Assembly: GCA_029224465.1 (NCBI GenBank) | Contig: JAQXUQ010000019.1 | Location: forward strand, 1 to 64,000 | Direction of reading: 5' to 3' | DNA: 64,000 nucleotides | Source of the DNA: Bacillota bacterium | GTDB taxonomy: Bacteria; Bacillota; Clostridia; Lachnospirales; Lachnospiraceae | In this document: in pieces, positions 6,258 to 64,000 of the stretch | Position numbering within the stretch: position 1 is the first letter of the stretch | Layout of the letters: the number at the start of each line of letters is the position of its first letter | Made by a program: the position numbers and the translations under genes | The notes under the pieces: generated by a model | The model's database searches: none | What the model was told of the DNA's origin: nothing | What the model saw: the letters and a program-made list of their open reading frames with translations, nothing else

Positions 6258-6861
6258 TCTTCGCCCTCCTTTCTTCCTCATAGGCTCTGATCACGCGATC
6301 TTCGAGACCCGTAATCTTGCCGTCCTTTATCAGTTCTGTAACAAGGGTCTTTCGCTGTTCGAGATCGCCGACCGCCAGTAGATCTGCCAGATATTCGATA
6401 TAAGAGAACATCTGGCAGGCCTCTACAAAGCGGTCATCAGGTTCTTCGCCCATCGAGACTGGGGCGAATCGCACCTTCCAGTCCTCCAGAAGGTGCATAT
6501 AATCACAAAGCACCCTCTGACAGTAACGTTCGTCATCACGAAACGCACTGATCATCGGGTGCTTAGGTTTTGCAAGCGCCGCTGCGGGTGAAGGCTTGTC
6601 CGGATCGATCCCAAAGTCCACAGTCAGCTTCCTCGCCGCTTCATAGGGGCTTAGAACGAAGAGTCTCCCTGTCAGATCGATCACATCCCCGGTGGCCCCG
6701 CAGCCGAAACAGTAGAAGTAATCTTCATTCAGCTTCAGGCTGGGATGCCGGTCATCATGGAACGGGCACCTAACCATGTCATGGTGATTTGGCTGTAGCC
6801 CGTACATCTTTGCCACATCAGGTACGCTCACACTTGCCTTTACAGTTTCAAATAGATTCAT
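6229..6861 (-). CDS. CHC2 zinc-finger DNA primase-like protein
   Basis: The 210-residue protein has the DnaG-type zinc finger near its start: CPFH (Cys32, His35) and CFGC (Cys51, Cys54), in the context RCPFHDDRHPSLKLNEDYFYCFGCGATGD. No TOPRIM catalytic domain follows, so it may act as a template-recognition subunit for the adjacent helicase. It is first in the minus-strand replication and mobilization operon (primase, helicase, relaxase, small protein). AGGAGG precedes the ATG. Confidence 0.82.
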   Translation of the reverse strand: MNLFETVKASVSVPDVAKMYGLQPNHHDMVRCPFHDDRHPSLKLNEDYFYCFGCGATGDVIDLTGRLFVLSPYEAARKLTVDFGIDPDKPSPAAALAKPKHPMISAFRDDERYCQRVLCDYMHLLEDWKVRFAPVSMGEEPDDRFVEACQMFSYIEYLADLLAVGDLEQRKTLVTELIKDGKITGLEDRVIRAYEEERRAKNAEEINAAS

Positions 6862-6982
6862 AGTCTGGTTCCTCCTTTGGATTTTATTTGGATACTTGAT
6901 CCTGATGTCTTATACGGAGGAAAACCGACGGACTTGAAAAATTGGGCGATTTTGGGATTTGGGAGGAGTGAACAACAGAGAA

Positions 6983-7053
6983 ATTGCAAAAACGCAATCT
7001 CTGGTGTGATATGTAATCATTTGATTGCATTTGATGTTTATATGTAATATACT
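6983..7053 (+). promoter_or_regulatory. Promoter and candidate operators of the toxin-antitoxin operon
   Basis: TTGCAT (7025-7030), a 17-bp spacer and TATACT (7048-7053) form a good sigma-A promoter. AATCA-TT-TGATT (7015-7026), a perfect inverted repeat, overlaps the -35. A second inverted repeat ATTGC-AAAAAC-GCAAT lies at 6983-6998. Both fit autorepression by a RelB-type antitoxin. Confidence 0.6.
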
Positions 7054-7099
7054 GAAGCTGAGAAAAAAGACACATTCGTTGCGATAGGAGGTAAAGAAA

Positions 7100-7378
7100 A
7101 TGGCAAGCACACTGGTCCAATTCCGAACAGAAGATACAGAAAAGCTGAAATCCGTTCAGATCCTTGAAAAGCTGGGACTGTCACTTCCGGCATACCTTCG
7201 GATGTGCATGTCCAGACTGAATCAGGAAAACGGGATTCCCTTCAGTATGAAGCTGGAAGAAGAACAAAACCCCGGCATTCGTGCCCTGCAGAGAGCAAGT
7301 CGGATCGCCGAGGAGTATGGTATTTCCGATATGTCATTGGATGAAATCAACGCGGAAATTGCTGAAGCCAGGAAGTAA
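7100..7378 (+). CDS. RelB/DinJ-family antitoxin
   Basis: The 92-residue protein has an N-terminal ribbon-helix-helix pattern (TLVQFRTEDTEKLKSVQILEKLGLSL), as in RelB/DinJ antitoxins, and an acidic C-terminal arm that would wrap the toxin. AGGAGG lies 8 bases before the ATG. It is followed after 6 bases by a PIN-domain gene, so the pair forms one operon. The protein probably represses the operon through the inverted repeats upstream. RelB-like antitoxins more often pair with RelE folds; here the partner is a PIN nuclease. Confidence 0.85.
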   Translation: MASTLVQFRTEDTEKLKSVQILEKLGLSLPAYLRMCMSRLNQENGIPFSMKLEEEQNPGIRALQRASRIAEEYGISDMSLDEINAEIAEARK

Positions 7379-7384
7379 CCGCCT

Positions 7385-7807
7385 ATGAAATACTACGCAG
7401 TAATCGATACCAATGTCCTCGTTTCAGCGATTTTGAAGCATCATTCTGTCCCGGGAAGTATCATCGACCTGGCATTCGACGGCCCGATCATACCGGTCCT
7501 GAATGACGCAATTGAGAAAGAATACCGGGAAGTCCTGTCACGCCCGAAGTTTCATCTCCCCTCAGATCTGATTGAAGACATCCTGTCATCGTTTCATCAA
7601 AGGGGGCTTTATGTCGATGCAGAAGAACTCGATATGGAACTTCCCGATCCGAAAGACAGGGTCTTTTATGAAGTTGTCATGGAAGAACGAAAAGAAGAGG
7701 ATGCTTATCTTGTGACCGGCAATATCAAGCATTTCCCGAAGAAGCCATATGTCGTAACACCGAGACAGATGCTGAATATCATATTGGAAGATCGGGAATA
7801 TTATTAG
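7385..7807 (+). CDS. PIN-domain toxin (COG1569-type)
   Basis: The 140-residue protein begins with the PIN motif AVIDTNVLVSAIL (Asp8), followed by KEYREVLSRPKF (acidic Glu), DPKDRVFYEV and a late LVTGNIKHFP motif, as in the putative PIN toxin family COG1569. PIN proteins are Mg-dependent ribonucleases with clustered acidic residues. It lies 6 bases after the RelB-like antitoxin. The pair would stabilise the element in the cell by post-segregational killing; the RNA target is unknown. Confidence 0.83.
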   Translation: MKYYAVIDTNVLVSAILKHHSVPGSIIDLAFDGPIIPVLNDAIEKEYREVLSRPKFHLPSDLIEDILSSFHQRGLYVDAEELDMELPDPKDRVFYEVVMEERKEEDAYLVTGNIKHFPKKPYVVTPRQMLNIILEDREYY

Positions 7808-7850
7808 ACAGATCCATCTTCAATCGATGGAATAAAGAGGTGAGAAACAG

Positions 7851-8684
7851 ATGGCACAGACCTGGCTTCCCGGCGATACGCGGCAGCGCATCCAGGACTT
7901 AATCAAAGACAACAGCATCACTCAAGCCGAGCTGGCAGGCATCATCGGCCTTTCTGAAAGTGCGCTCAGCCGCTACCTGAAAGGCCAGACCGAGATGCTC
8001 GGTGACGGGTATATCATCAAGATCGCCAAGCATTTTAATGTATCTACAGACTTCCTCCTGGGAGAGACGGATATCCCGGATCGGAAAAATTATGATATTG
8101 AGGAGCTGGGGCTTTCCGCGGAATCTGCGAAATTACTGTATACCGGAAAGATTGATTCCAACATCTTAAACCTGCTGATCGAGAATCCGAAATTCGCGCA
8201 CCTTATCCGCCTGCTTGCCCTCTATAAGGATGAGACCATGCTTGACGGCATAAGAGCCGCAAATCAGAATTATACATTTCTGCGGTCCCTCCTGATGGGC
8301 CAGGCCAGGTTTCATCCCGAAGATGCTGCGACGGCCATAGACCTGGCGCAAAAGCTTTCGGATCTGAAAGCACCTCCGGTCTCTGCAGATATCGATGCAA
8401 TAAGGACGGTCTTTATGCAGATCGTCGCGGATATAAAGGCAAGTGCTGCCTCTGAAAGCAAAATGTACCAGACTGCTACTTCAGAAATACTGGAAGATTT
8501 CCGCAAAACGCTCACAAGGGGCGAGGAAGGATTTGATTTAAAATCTCTTACCGTGGATGATATGGTACAGGCCATCATGCATTATGCGAGACAAGGGGAT
8601 TTCCCGCCAGAGACTTTATCAAATCTGGAAGAGACTCTGACAGAATTGTTTGAATCCGCAAAGGTGCCCGGCAATGACGAATGA
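7851..8684 (+). CDS. XRE-family regulator of the element
   Basis: The 277-residue protein has an N-terminal HTH (about 10-66, ITQAELAGIIGLSESALSRYLKG) and a long helical C-terminal region without a recognised domain. GAGGTG precedes the start. The gene overlaps the sigma-like gene by 11 bases, so the two are likely translated together and may act on the same promoters. It probably controls element excision or transfer, by analogy with regulators of phages and ICEs. Confidence 0.8.
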   Translation: MAQTWLPGDTRQRIQDLIKDNSITQAELAGIIGLSESALSRYLKGQTEMLGDGYIIKIAKHFNVSTDFLLGETDIPDRKNYDIEELGLSAESAKLLYTGKIDSNILNLLIENPKFAHLIRLLALYKDETMLDGIRAANQNYTFLRSLLMGQARFHPEDAATAIDLAQKLSDLKAPPVSADIDAIRTVFMQIVADIKASAASESKMYQTATSEILEDFRKTLTRGEEGFDLKSLTVDDMVQAIMHYARQGDFPPETLSNLEETLTELFESAKVPGNDE

Positions 8685-58544: not shown

Positions 58545-58964
58545 TCAGTTCTTATAATCCTTGCCCTTGAACTTCAGTCTTGACAAGGCTCTTGCCATTG
58601 CCGCCTGCGTCATGCGGTATTCGCTGATGCTCTGTCTCTGACGCAGCCGCTCTTTCGCGCGTTCCAGCGCTTCGTTCGCTCTGCGCGCGTCCAGCTCCGC
58701 CTCGGTTTCGCAGGTATCCACGAGAACCTGGCAGCGGTTGTTCGCGAACACCATGGTTCCGAACCCCGCAACGACGTGAATCTTTGTCCCGTCGTCCTTT
58801 TCAATATCGAGCTCTCCGGGTTCCAGTGCCATAATGACTCTCTGATGATGCGCGAGAAACTGGATCTGGCCGTCCAGCGTCTGCACGGTCAGGCACTTCG
58901 CGAAGCCCTTGTAAAACTCCTTGTCCGTGGCAAGTACTCTAAGATAGAAATGTGCTGTTTCCAT
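58545..58964 (-). CDS. atpC: ATP synthase F1 epsilon subunit
   Basis: The 139-residue protein has an N-terminal beta-sandwich (about 1-88, LTVQTLDGQIQFLAHHQRVIMALEPGEL) and a C-terminal two-helix arm (about 90-130, EAELDARRANEALERAKERL), the part that can inhibit the rotor. It closes the operon. A long Arg/Lys-rich end follows. Confidence 0.93.
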   Translation of the reverse strand: METAHFYLRVLATDKEFYKGFAKCLTVQTLDGQIQFLAHHQRVIMALEPGELDIEKDDGTKIHVVAGFGTMVFANNRCQVLVDTCETEAELDARRANEALERAKERLRQRQSISEYRMTQAAMARALSRLKFKGKDYKN

Positions 58965-59000: not shown

Positions 59001-61329
<2,329 letters not shown>

Positions 61330-61360: not shown

Positions 61361-63175
61361 TCAGGCTTTGGGGGCTTCCTTCTTGTCCCACTTTTCGCTC
61401 CGGAACGCGTCCGCGGCCTTTAGAATTTCTTTGGCCGTGGAATCTTCCAGCCGTCCGCTGGTTGTGATCTCGCTCACAATGTTCGGATACGATGCGTGGA
61501 AATAATCGAGCATCTCGCTCTGATATTCCTTGACTTCCCTGACGGGCAGATCAATCATCTTGCGGCTCTCCGCAACAACAAGTGTAATGACCTGATCCGC
61601 CATCGAAAGCGGATGCTCCAGAGGCTGCTTGAGCAGTTCCATCAGAACACGTCCCTGCGCGAGCTGCTGCTGCGTTGCCTCGTCCAGATCAGAGGAGAAC
61701 TGTGTGAACACTTCCATTTCCCTGTACTGTGCGAGGTCGATACGGAGCGAACCTGCCGCCTTCTTCATGGCTTTGGTCTGCGCGGCGCCGCCGACACGGG
61801 ATACCGAAAGTCCGACGTTGACCGCGGGACGCTGTCCCTCGAAAAACAGATCCGACTCCAGGAAAATCTGGCCGTCCGTAATGGAAATGACGTTGGTCGG
61901 AATATATGCGGATACATCGCCGTCCTGCGTCTCGATGATCGGAAGCGCCGTTATGGAGCCGCCGCCGAGCGCGTCGGACAGTCTCGAGGAACGTTCGAGA
62001 AGTCTGGAATGCAGGTAGAAAACATCGCCGGGGTACGCTTCACGTCCCGGGCTTCTGCCGAGCAGCAGGGAAATCGCGCGGTACGCGACCGCGTGCTTGG
62101 AAAGGTCATCATAAACGACAAGAACGTCCCGGCCGCGCAGCATGAAATATTCTGCGAGGGAAGTTGCCGCATACGGTGCGATATACTGCAGAGGCGCCGG
62201 ATCCGCCGCTGTCGAAGCAACAACGATCGAATAATCCAGAGCGCCATGCTCTTTAAGTGTGTTCACAAACGTTGCGATCGTCGATGCCTTCTGGCCGATT
62301 GCTGTGTAAATGCAGATAGTGTTTTTACCCTTCTGGTTCAGGATGGTGTCAAGGGCGATCGATGTTTTGCCGGTCTGGCGGTCGCCGATGATCAGCTCAC
62401 GCTGGCCGCGGCCGATCGGGAACATCGAGTCGATTGCGAGAATGCCGGTCTCCATAGGAGTCGTAACGGGCTTTCTGTCGATAATGCCCGGCGCCGGCTC
62501 TTCAATCGGACGGTACTCGTCGGAAACAATCGGAGATCCGCCGTCAATCGGGGAGCCGAGCGCGTCAATGACGCGGCCGAGGAATCCGTCGCCGACAGGA
62601 ATGCCGGCGCGCTTGCCGGTGCCGACAACACGGCTGCCTTCGCCGATCGTGCCTTCCTGATCGAACAGGATCGCGCCGATGCCGTCATCGTTGATATCCT
62701 GCACCATGCCCTTGACGCCGTTGTCAAACAGAACGATTTCGCCGTACTGTACATGGGAAAGGCCGTCGATTGTGACAATGCCGTCGCCGGCGGTTTCAAC
62801 TGTGCCGACTTCCGACTTCTCCGCCTGAATATGGAAACGGTCGATCGCGGTCTTGAGCATCGTCATGATGCTGCCGGAGCCGTCGCCCGAGCCGTCATCT
62901 CTGTAAGCTTTTTCCCTTGCGGCGTCGATACGGTTTTCGAACTGTCTCTCGCGGCCGCGGGTACTCCAGTCATACTCGTCGCTTCCTACGTCCAGAATGA
63001 AGCCGCCGTGAACCTTGGGTTCGAGAACGACCTCGAGTTCGACATCTTCCTTTCTGACACTGTATTTCGCGGCAAGAAATTCGATAAATTTCGTCTTCTG
63101 CTCATCGCTGGGTCTCGTGACGCAGCGCAGAACCGCGTGCAGCTTCTGCACGTCTACATTCGGATTATTGCTCAT
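61361..63175 (-). CDS. atpA: ATP synthase F1 alpha subunit with N-terminal delta-like domain (fusion)
   Basis: The 604-residue protein is about 100 residues longer than usual. Residues about 10-85 (RPSDEQKTKFIEFLAAKYS, VELEVVLEPKVHGGFILDVG, then DEYDWSTRGRERQFENRI) match the C-terminal domain of the delta/OSCP subunit, where a loop like VDPSLIGGFxxxxG and a DxSxRGxLExL motif are standard. A Gly/Ser/Asp linker (DDGSGDGSGS, about 93-102) leads to the normal alpha core from about 105, with Walker A GDRQTGKT (264-271). No atpH lies between atpF and atpA. It overlaps atpF by 11 bases. Confidence 0.92.
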   Translation of the reverse strand: MSNNPNVDVQKLHAVLRCVTRPSDEQKTKFIEFLAAKYSVRKEDVELEVVLEPKVHGGFILDVGSDEYDWSTRGRERQFENRIDAAREKAYRDDGSGDGSGSIMTMLKTAIDRFHIQAEKSEVGTVETAGDGIVTIDGLSHVQYGEIVLFDNGVKGMVQDINDDGIGAILFDQEGTIGEGSRVVGTGKRAGIPVGDGFLGRVIDALGSPIDGGSPIVSDEYRPIEEPAPGIIDRKPVTTPMETGILAIDSMFPIGRGQRELIIGDRQTGKTSIALDTILNQKGKNTICIYTAIGQKASTIATFVNTLKEHGALDYSIVVASTAADPAPLQYIAPYAATSLAEYFMLRGRDVLVVYDDLSKHAVAYRAISLLLGRSPGREAYPGDVFYLHSRLLERSSRLSDALGGGSITALPIIETQDGDVSAYIPTNVISITDGQIFLESDLFFEGQRPAVNVGLSVSRVGGAAQTKAMKKAAGSLRIDLAQYREMEVFTQFSSDLDEATQQQLAQGRVLMELLKQPLEHPLSMADQVITLVVAESRKMIDLPVREVKEYQSEMLDYFHASYPNIVSEITTSGRLEDSTAKEILKAADAFRSEKWDKKEAPKA

Positions 63176-63641
63176 TCTGTGATACTTCCTTCAGAAAGTC
63201 GTCATACAGCTTCTCATCGCTCTCGGATTCCGCGATTTTGGCGGCAGCTTCCTTTACCATGCCGGTAATCTCGTCCTCTGCCTTGCGCTTCTCCTGATCG
63301 GCCACAGCCTTTGCCTTGTCTCTGGCCTCGCTGATGATCTGCTCTGATTTGGACTGCGCCTCGCCGACAATTCTGTCGTACTCGGCTGCGCCCTTTACTT
63401 TTGCGTCCGCGACTGCCTTCTCTTCGTTCTCGGCAATCTTCGATGCAGAAGCAGCCAGCTGCGCTTTCAGATCGTCTGCGTCCTTATTGGTCTTTTCGGC
63501 TGCCTGATAGCTGGCTTCAATCTCGTCATTGCGCTTTTTCAGGATTTCCCTCACCGGCTTGAAGAGGAACTTCTTGACGAGGGCAAACAGAATCAGCACA
63601 TTGATGATTTCCCAGACGATATTCAGATCAATACGTAACAT
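63165..63641 (-). CDS. atpF: ATP synthase F0 b subunit
   Basis: The 158-residue protein has an N-terminal membrane helix (about 8-28, WEIINVLILFALVKKFLFKPV) and a long charged coiled coil, the dimeric stalk that binds delta. AAGGAG precedes the ATG. The gene ends inside the start of atpA, where atpH is normally found. Its C-terminus (SESDEKLYDDFLKEVSQNEQ) would meet the delta-like domain. Confidence 0.95.
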   Translation of the reverse strand: MLRIDLNIVWEIINVLILFALVKKFLFKPVREILKKRNDEIEASYQAAEKTNKDADDLKAQLAASASKIAENEEKAVADAKVKGAAEYDRIVGEAQSKSEQIISEARDKAKAVADQEKRKAEDEITGMVKEAAAKIAESESDEKLYDDFLKEVSQNEQ

Positions 63642-63704: not shown

Positions 63705-63917
63705 TTACAGCATGAAGATGATCAGAATACCGATTACGAAACCGTAAATAGCAGTTGCCTCTGCAAGCGCGCAGCCAAGCAGAAGGTTTCTCATGATCTT
63801 GGAATCTGCCTCCGGCTGTCTCGCGATCGCGTCTGTAGCGTGTGCTGTTGCAATACCGATACCAAGACCTGCGCCGATGCAAGCCAGTGCCGCAATACCT
63901 GCTCCTAATGCTACCAT
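63705..63917 (-). CDS. atpE: ATP synthase F0 c subunit
   Basis: The 70-residue protein has two membrane helices joined by the RQPEA loop. The ion-binding carboxylate is the Glu in [10 protein letters not shown]. The Gln and Ser typical of Na-binding rings are absent from the first helix ([12 protein letters not shown]) and the AEAT motif, which favours protons. GGAGG precedes the ATG. Confidence 0.95.
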
Positions 63918-63979: not shown

Positions 63980-64000
63980 CTAAGCTCCTACGCCTGCGCA
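63980..64000 (-). CDS. atpB: ATP synthase F0 a subunit, C-terminal end (partial)
   Basis: The window edge leaves six codons (CAGVGA) and a TAG, immediately upstream of atpE. The assignment rests on operon order (a precedes c) rather than on sequence. Confidence 0.35.
   Translation of the reverse strand, partial: CAGVGA

Follow-up and report, generated by a model that had tools for sequence, protein, structure and literature searches.

Near one end of a 64,000-nucleotide stretch of a Lachnospiraceae genome (contig JAQXUQ010000019.1, positions 1 to 64,000; "the window" below is the whole of this analysed stretch) lies a gene for an ATP synthase alpha subunit which begins with a piece of the delta subunit. 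The locus raises the question of what kind of enzyme is made when the stalk-binding domain of delta is joined covalently to alpha and, in particular, of how many peripheral stalks such an enzyme would carry. The initial annotation of this DNA recognized the fusion and proposed that the rest of delta had been dispensed with. As a whole its interpretation is partly supported: the identity of the domain stands, the absence of delta was too strong a test, and the single b dimer that it assumed is probably a mistake.

The fused atpA and its operon

The gene (61361-63175, minus strand) is a single open frame of 604 amino acids with an ATG start, and three parts follow one another in it, all on the same strand. 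The delta/OSCP C-terminal domain, which is the b-stalk-binding domain (AtpA residues 12-92; 62900..63142), was recognized with PF00213, AlphaFold2 and the A2 profile; the Gly/Ser/Asp linker DDGSGDGSGS (residues 93-102; 62870..62899) was read directly; and the complete alpha core including the N-terminal helix (residues 103-604 and the stop codon; 61361..62869) was identified with TIGR00962. On their own, residues 1-103 match PF00213 (OSCP) with an E value of 5.2e-6 and 27.1 bits against a curated cut-off of 22.3, residues 12-81 lying on positions 103-170 of the 172 in the profile, that is, on its C-terminal part only; with the A2 profile, the matches to solved delta subunits fall in their C-terminal halves. 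The motifs KVHGGFILDVG (residues 54-64) and DWSTRGR (residues 69-75) can be read in the sequence, and the alpha part (residues 102-593) covers positions 6-499 of the TIGR00962 atpA model with 719.8 bits (cut-off 484.45). The length of the linker varies between relatives. Gly58 aligns with residue 150 (Gly) of E. coli delta, where mutation impairs coupling, and is invariant in the aligned fused proteins (15/15 and 21/21 in two alignments).

A delta C-terminal domain and a complete alpha fused in one frame are confirmed as an observation; the PF00213 and TIGR00962 matches, together with recurrence in relatives, rule out a chance open frame as their origin. Direct reading and TIGR00962 agree with the initial annotation on the 604 residues, the motifs, the linker, the complete alpha and the 11-base overlap with atpF, and the C-terminal profile positions bear out its assignment of the extension to the stalk-binding domain of delta.

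A model of AtpA was predicted with AlphaFold2 from 21 aligned fused chains, among which were two full-length fusions. In it the domain is folded as strand-helix-strand-strand-strand-helix, with block pLDDT values of 79-89 for residues 11-80 and 71 for residues 81-90; it is followed by the linker at low confidence (pLDDT <50 at residues 96-100) and then by the N-terminal helix of alpha. Outside the N-terminal part the model is weak (mean pLDDT 69.4, pTM 0.54).

The remaining subunits are encoded around the fused gene, again on the minus strand. Upstream, atpF (63165..63641) specifies a b-subunit of 158 amino acids (PF00430, E 2.6e-10) and overlaps by 11 bases with the fused atpA, which starts at 63175; atpE (63705..63917) specifies a c-subunit of 70 amino acids with an H+-type ligand pattern (Ile32 and Ala66 in Ilyobacter numbering); and of atpB, encoding a, only the last bases (63988..64000) fall within the window, the whole gene (C19:63988-64725, 245 amino acids) lying mostly beyond it. 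Downstream come atpG (gamma, 317 amino acids, 60376..61329), with a C-terminal tail longer than that of the canonical copy (288 amino acids) discussed below, atpD (beta, 462 amino acids, 59001..60389) and atpC (epsilon, 139 amino acids, 58545..58964). The operon contains a full F1Fo set of a, c, b, alpha, gamma, beta and epsilon; the a-subunit has the RLFGN-type arginine motif, which is essential, and the c-subunit has its carboxylate. Read whole, the operon contains no atpH, as the initial annotation had reported, and the N-terminal domain of delta is found neither in the fused gene (PF00213 positions 103-170 only) nor elsewhere in the operon; as far as the gene is concerned it has indeed been dispensed with.

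Distribution of the fusion and a second ATP synthase

The window genome is a draft of 34 contigs, 95.9% complete with an estimated contamination of 4.4%. A PF00213 search of the whole draft picked up, besides the domain in the window, a single delta of full length (C21:49253-49750, E 7.5e-45). This delta is part of a second, complete operon (a-c-b-delta-alpha-gamma-beta-epsilon), whose alpha is of the ordinary kind and has 511 amino acids. This canonical operon rules out the fusion as a genome-wide replacement of delta in the organism. Both operons are also present in G029, whose AtpA is 99% identical to that of the window. The initial annotation had held that a full delta elsewhere would count against its reading; one literally exists, but it belongs to a separate canonical operon, and in all 24 of the selected relatives described below every F-type alpha found is fused.

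In the genus of the window 15 of 62 genomes carry a fusion of this operon family (G000, which is the window genome, G029, G036, G014, G072, G061, G015, G011, G005, G025, G027, G074, G069, G078 and G070); included in the 15 are G061, in which an assembly gap splits the fused gene, and G070, in which the fused delta is nearly full length. Nine of the 15 lack a separate delta and six also hold one. A sample of the order contained at least 63 genomes among 392, the window genome included, with a stop-free frame over the delta domain and alpha, a lower bound obtained by counting rows without a stop and with a query start of ≤10; leaving the window genome aside, 20 of the 62 fused genomes are without a separate delta and 42 have one. 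At least 30 of 391 genomes in a class sample are fused (E ≤ 1e-28), the 20 that lie beyond the order being spread over 12 families. The phylum sample gave 5 of 398, all in the same class, and 20 matches from other classes contain stops in the matched stretch.

Every F-type alpha found (TIGR00962, E ≤ 1e-100) is fused in all 24 fused-only genomes examined, with one such alpha in each and two in G078. These genomes were picked for having a fusion and no separate delta, and comprise 16 of the 20 order genomes (≥90% complete, ≤5% contaminated) and 8 of the 9 genus genomes; 22 of them are ≥90% complete and ≤5% contaminated. Two strains named [Clostridium] aminophilum are among the genomes whose only F-type alpha found is fused. 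No split-off delta N-terminal domain was found over the family cut-off at E ≤ 0.1 in the nine fused-only genus genomes; G025 alone gave two matches below the cut-off, on C6 (E 0.03, profile 106-154) and C7 (E 0.05, profile 41-114); the frames concerned are long, with 817 and 639 amino acids respectively. Near relatives of the window domain occur in Lachnospiraceae assemblies (RUG304, 99% identical in the domain, and others), in Lachnospiraceae bacterium NK3A20 and in Firmicutes bacterium CAG:791, and fusions are also present in the two [Clostridium] aminophilum strains and in Clostridium fessum SNUG30386.

Several loci are unusual in themselves. G078 has two different truncated delta-alpha operons in one genome (L067 and L068), and its operon on C9 encodes a divergent a and a 131-amino acid c-subunit with an N-terminal extension ahead of the hairpin; c frames of 124-148 amino acids are also seen in other fused loci (L152, L157, L163 and L164). 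In the G061 locus (L071) an unread stretch, a run of X in the translation, breaks the fused atpA into two listed frames, and in the draft record of [Ruminococcus] faecis JCM 15917 (L135) the a, alpha and beta frames are each in pieces.

Three states of one operon family

Loci fetched by similarity to the fused domain belong to one operon family that exists in three states. In Mediterraneibacter and relatives delta (ca. 180 amino acids) and alpha (ca. 505 amino acids) are separate, the latter ca. 68-70% identical to the window alpha; a full-length delta-alpha fusion of ca. 670-690 amino acids is exemplified by C. fessum; and in the truncated state the delta C-terminal domain is joined to alpha in a chain of mostly 580-630 amino acids. 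We assigned these labels from frame lengths and alignment positions, and they involve judgement. The predicted structure of the C. fessum chain has six N-terminal helices, mostly at pLDDT 79-92, before the C-terminal domain, corresponding to a complete delta.

For phylogenetic analysis 151 of 171 loci were retained. The 20 that were dropped consist of 11 duplicates (L116, L120, L121, L123, L125, L126, L128, L129, L130, L131 and L161) and nine fragments, gapped or alpha-less loci (L071, L122, L135, L142, L158, L256, L278, L284 and L150, the last needlessly). A FastTree phylogeny of the alpha core and beta was calculated from the 151 rows (79 truncated, 27 full, 32 separate in this operon family and 13 canonical). 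The operon family (136 rows: 78 truncated, 32 separate and 26 full) is set apart from the canonical operons with a local support of 100, and the truncated label needs nine changes on this tree, at least seven of them forced by starred branches. An IQ-TREE analysis was restricted to 42 of the 151 rows, chosen after the first tree to cover the clade mixing full and truncated fusions, and rooted on four separate-delta rows. All 38 fused rows fell in one clade (99/96) with full and truncated forms intermixed; the truncated state needs six changes, all six forced by starred branches, and none (0%) of 200 bootstrap trees recovers it as a single group. Constraining the truncated rows to one clade lowered the log-likelihood by 314 and was rejected by the AU test (p-AU 5e-125), for which the group was named after a tree had been seen. 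Parsimony alone does not tell gain from loss of the delta N-terminal domain; since its regain is implausible, we infer for that clade one fusion followed by repeated parallel loss of this domain.

Outside the clade, a truncated fusion (L275, from G467) is placed with the canonical operons. In G081, a genome of the same genus as the window, a full-length delta-alpha fusion of 678 amino acids was observed in a canonical, sodium-type operon (L073, G081:C1:49000-65000; 6595-8631, minus strand). Its alpha part is 87% identical to the canonical alpha of the window genome, and this fusion is independent.

In all 106 fused rows of the tree set the detected subunit genes share a strand and are arranged a-c-b-alpha-gamma-beta-epsilon; occasional genes are missing, chiefly where a fetched stretch ends (L119, L198, L239, L259 and L267), and gamma was unrecognized in L260 and L263. 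From the stop of b to the first possible atpA start the 79 truncated rows have a median distance of -4 bases and a maximum of 86, the value for the window being -11. Apparent remnants of the delta N-terminal domain upstream of atpA in G144, G227, G262 and G397, matched by PF00213 through stops, were rejected: because the b-to-atpA spacing is at most 86 bases these stretches lie in the b gene, in another frame. A regular expression for the b C-terminal motif matched 62/79 truncated, 21/27 full, 30/32 separate and 9/13 canonical rows, a pattern too loose to use.

The window gamma (60376-61329) was seen to have a basic C-terminal tail ca. 23 residues longer than that of the canonical copy. Median tail lengths are 9 in canonical rows (n=11), 11 in rows of the same operon family with a separate delta (n=31), 15 in full (n=26) and 21 in truncated fusions (n=51), as measured in 119 of the 151 rows, the pattern having failed in 30 (26 of them truncated) and no gamma having been found in two truncated loci. 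A long tail was discarded as a sign that the delta N-terminal domain is missing, given that L215 (full, 17) and L240 (truncated, 13), a sister pair, run in the opposite direction.

Sodium-translocating c-subunits are described as having Gln or Glu at position 32 and Ser or Thr at position 66 (PMC2359735). Both sodium ligands are present in 12 of 13 canonical c-subunits, including the canonical copy of the window genome (Glu32 and Thr66), and the c-subunit of the window's fused operon, with its Ile32 and Ala66, falls outside the Na+-type rule. Gln/Glu32 is absent from the c-subunits of the fused family whether delta is separate (32/32), fully fused (26/26) or truncated (78/78), where the truncated 78 include the canonical-side L275, one further locus is without c, and the 27th full fusion, L073, has Glu32 and Thr66. 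Thr is kept at position 66 in 30 of the 78 truncated-fusion c-subunits. Judged by these residues, the window genome probably possesses a sodium-type canonical enzyme and a proton-type fused enzyme.

The same genome contains a six-gene Ech-like energy-converting hydrogenase operon (L295:7133-12471, on G000:C8) with complex-I-like and hydrogenase-type Pfam matches. The Ech marker PF00146 occurs in 15/15 fused genus genomes versus 12/47 others (Fisher p 1.9e-7), an association that is uncorrected for shared ancestry, with matches in two strength groups and the locus read in the window genome only. A link of the fusion to an Ech-like hydrogenase is a lead only. The rnfC gene, over the cut-off in 58/62 genus genomes, is uninformative.

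Stalk number and known counterparts

The window protein belongs to a kind that has been in print since July 2025. Ueno et al. 2025 (Nat Commun 16:5410, PMC12229609) deleted residues 2-104 of Bacillus PS3 delta and fused the rest to alpha, and describe an enzyme in which as many as three b2 stalks and three a-subunits assemble, the a-subunits averaging about two, and in which H+/ATP is 5.8 ± 0.4 instead of 3.0 ± 0.2. According to the same account the particles had about two stalks on average and seldom three, pumping activity was lower and stalks were lost in preparation. In the argument of these authors, the restriction to one stalk comes from the N-terminal domain of delta, which lies on the threefold axis above alpha3beta3. 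Their Discussion cites a natural fusion in the operon of Acidaminococcus fermentans from which the N-terminal domain is missing, and also two UniProt entries (G4Q3K6, A0A1I2C5T3); that Discussion is silent on how widespread such fusions are, on full-length forms, on a second operon and on ion type, and the words Lachnospiraceae, Clostridi- and Firmicutes are absent from the main text. Further papers on such delta-alpha fusions were not found in an open-access library. New here, as far as searched, are the wide occurrence in Clostridia, the intermediates with a full-length fused delta, the truncation in parallel lines and the contrast between proton-type and sodium-type c-subunits.

The structure deposited by Ueno et al. 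is PDB 9JC1, in which chain I is named as a delta/alpha fusion. When the window model was compared with 350,542 PDB chains using Foldseek, the top three matches were the engineered deltaDeltaN-alpha chains 9jc1_I, 9jc1_K and 9jc1_J (579-589 columns), and ordinary alphas ranked below them (ca. 470-515 columns); the C. fessum full-length fusion also ranks 9jc1 first. The match to 9jc1_I has TM-scores of 0.59/0.63 and an rmsd of 19.5, a high value that we attribute to the poor alpha core of the window model. By sequence, AtpA 21-592 aligns with 9jc1_I 12-573. Among the 50 entries returned by VIA-align 9jc1 is absent, and most alignments span residues 118-601.

We propose that, with the delta C-terminal domain covalently on every alpha and the N-terminal domain gone, the axis would be unoccupied and the three alphas would form three equivalent docking sites for b dimers. 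Each b dimer may bring its own a-subunit, so that b2-a units could sit at one, two or three positions. Two or even three stalks and a-subunits would result, and with them more ions per ATP; the enzyme could then make ATP when the proton-motive force is low, or pump more gently at the expense of ATP. Several stalks would be possible because no delta N-terminal domain lies on the axis and the sites are equivalent. The initial annotation had allowed for only one b dimer, which is probably wrong given the up to three b dimers and three a-subunits of the engineered equivalent (PMC12229609), the homologue from which our predicted stalk number is taken.

Two readings go together: that the window atpA encodes the alpha of a second F-type ATP synthase, predicted to be proton-translocating, of a Lachnospiraceae bacterium, and that this fused enzyme is most likely a multi-stalk, multi-a machine with raised ions per ATP. 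We place them on the probable side, with considerable room for doubt. In favour of several stalks are the domain match, the completeness of the operon, the fused-only genomes, 9jc1 as the top match, the engineered result, the parallel losses and the invariant Gly58. Against them, the natural members are known from sequence alone, a canonical delta could in principle bind in trans, the model is weak, and the engineered enzyme itself averaged about two stalks and pumped less; furthermore, the operon family keeps 32 separate and 26 full-length fused deltas in its 136 rows, and for that reason the truncated layout cannot be a requirement of the family.

The main rival is an enzyme with a single stalk, in which the fusion only secures delta, one domain binds the b dimer and two stay idle, and stoichiometry and H+/ATP are ordinary; we regard this as unlikely, though it deserves to be taken seriously. 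The length and C-terminus of b are ordinary, as it would predict, a standard-looking b C-terminus being uninformative on copy number, and the full-length fusions (27 tree rows, 26 in this family), with three N-terminal domains for one axial place, are presumably one-stalk enzymes. The engineered enzyme, moreover, shed stalks in preparation, but in it removal of the axial domain lifted the one-stalk limit (PMC12229609). The three sites would also be chemically identical, with nothing on the axis to break their symmetry, and the axial domain was lost repeatedly, which suggests that doing without it is favoured, or tolerated at the least.

Internal initiation near residues 104/106 would yield an ordinary alpha as well, and about one fused and two plain alphas per enzyme. 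The window does have ATG codons at 104 and 106, 43 of the 79 truncated homologues have an ATG at the junction, and 17 of the 79 have a start there with a 4-base Shine-Dalgarno match. Neither of the two window ATGs, however, has a Shine-Dalgarno match of ≥4 bases, while the upstream start has one of 4; matches of ≥5 bases occur in 0/79 homologues at the junction versus 27/79 at the best upstream start (≥4 bases: 62/79), and 25/79 have no ATG, GTG or TTG in the junction stretch. An internal start near residue 104, raised in the initial annotation as a possible objection, is unsupported, and we consider this explanation improbable.

We give even less credence to the canonical delta of the other operon serving both enzymes, with the fused domain vestigial. 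A separate delta accompanies the fusion in 42/62 order and 6/15 genus genomes but is lacking in 20/62 and 9/15, the fused domain keeps its invariant residues across distant relatives, and the 24 fused-only genomes searched yielded no alpha without the fusion. The chance of an assembly, frameshift or binning artefact, which a draft of 34 contigs with 4.4% estimated contamination might suggest, is negligible, the idea being already refuted by recurrence of the fusion in dozens of genomes with the same gene order and by the presence of both operons in G029.

Extended beyond the window, the multi-stalk reading becomes tentative, and we put it a little short of an even chance: Clostridia would harbour widespread natural multi-stalk proton ATP synthases, arisen by parallel N-terminal loss; these would have as many as three b2 stalks and three a-subunits and a higher H+/ATP, work beside a sodium-type enzyme or alone, be accompanied in the genus of the window (15/15) by the marker of an Ech-like hydrogenase, and be tuned to the weak proton gradients of anaerobic life in the gut. 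Gut bacteria with the fusion may gain ATP from weaker ion gradients. The engineering route of 2025, deletion of the delta N-terminal domain and fusion of the rest to alpha, is now matched by a natural construct, and since many good genomes yielded no F-type alpha/delta other than the fused chain, the way is open to a direct search for a natural multi-stalk enzyme. The progression from separate through full to truncated, with repeated truncation, constitutes a natural experiment on the function of delta's N-terminal domain, and the presence of a sodium-type canonical enzyme in one cell with the fused one would bear on the use of two ion circuits by anaerobes.

The fused enzyme has parallels in several known systems. 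V/A-type ATPases carry two or three EG peripheral stalks on repeated head subunits with a single stator a/I subunit, and are composed of different protein families; they resemble the enzyme proposed for the window in having several stalks. The mycobacterial b-delta fusion is present in one copy per enzyme. It is like the window protein in that a delta domain is covalently attached to another stator subunit (PDB 7jg5_d, 9vkp_d), and unlike it in that this subunit is b. The N-ATPase resembles the window system in that it has no delta subunit and occurs in addition to a main ATP synthase (PMC5706428), but its b is longer and E-like, that of the window having 158 amino acids. With 594.6 bits the window alpha stays below the cut-off of the N-ATPase model TIGR03324 (750.5), as it does with the models of the Mycoplasma F1-like ATPases (NF045936, 309.9 versus 520; NF045863, 441.1 versus 600).

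The Acidaminococcus fermentans fusion, compared here by its published description only, shows the same domain loss and fusion as the window protein (PMC12229609). The engineered PS3 enzyme differs in that the C-terminal domain of epsilon was removed and stalk number was measured, the window enzyme being known from its genes and having an epsilon of 139 amino acids. It shares with the window protein the attachment of the delta C-terminal domain (residues 105-178) to the N-terminus of alpha through a short linker, without the delta N-terminal domain (PMC12229609), and the window protein aligns with nearly the whole of the engineered chain.
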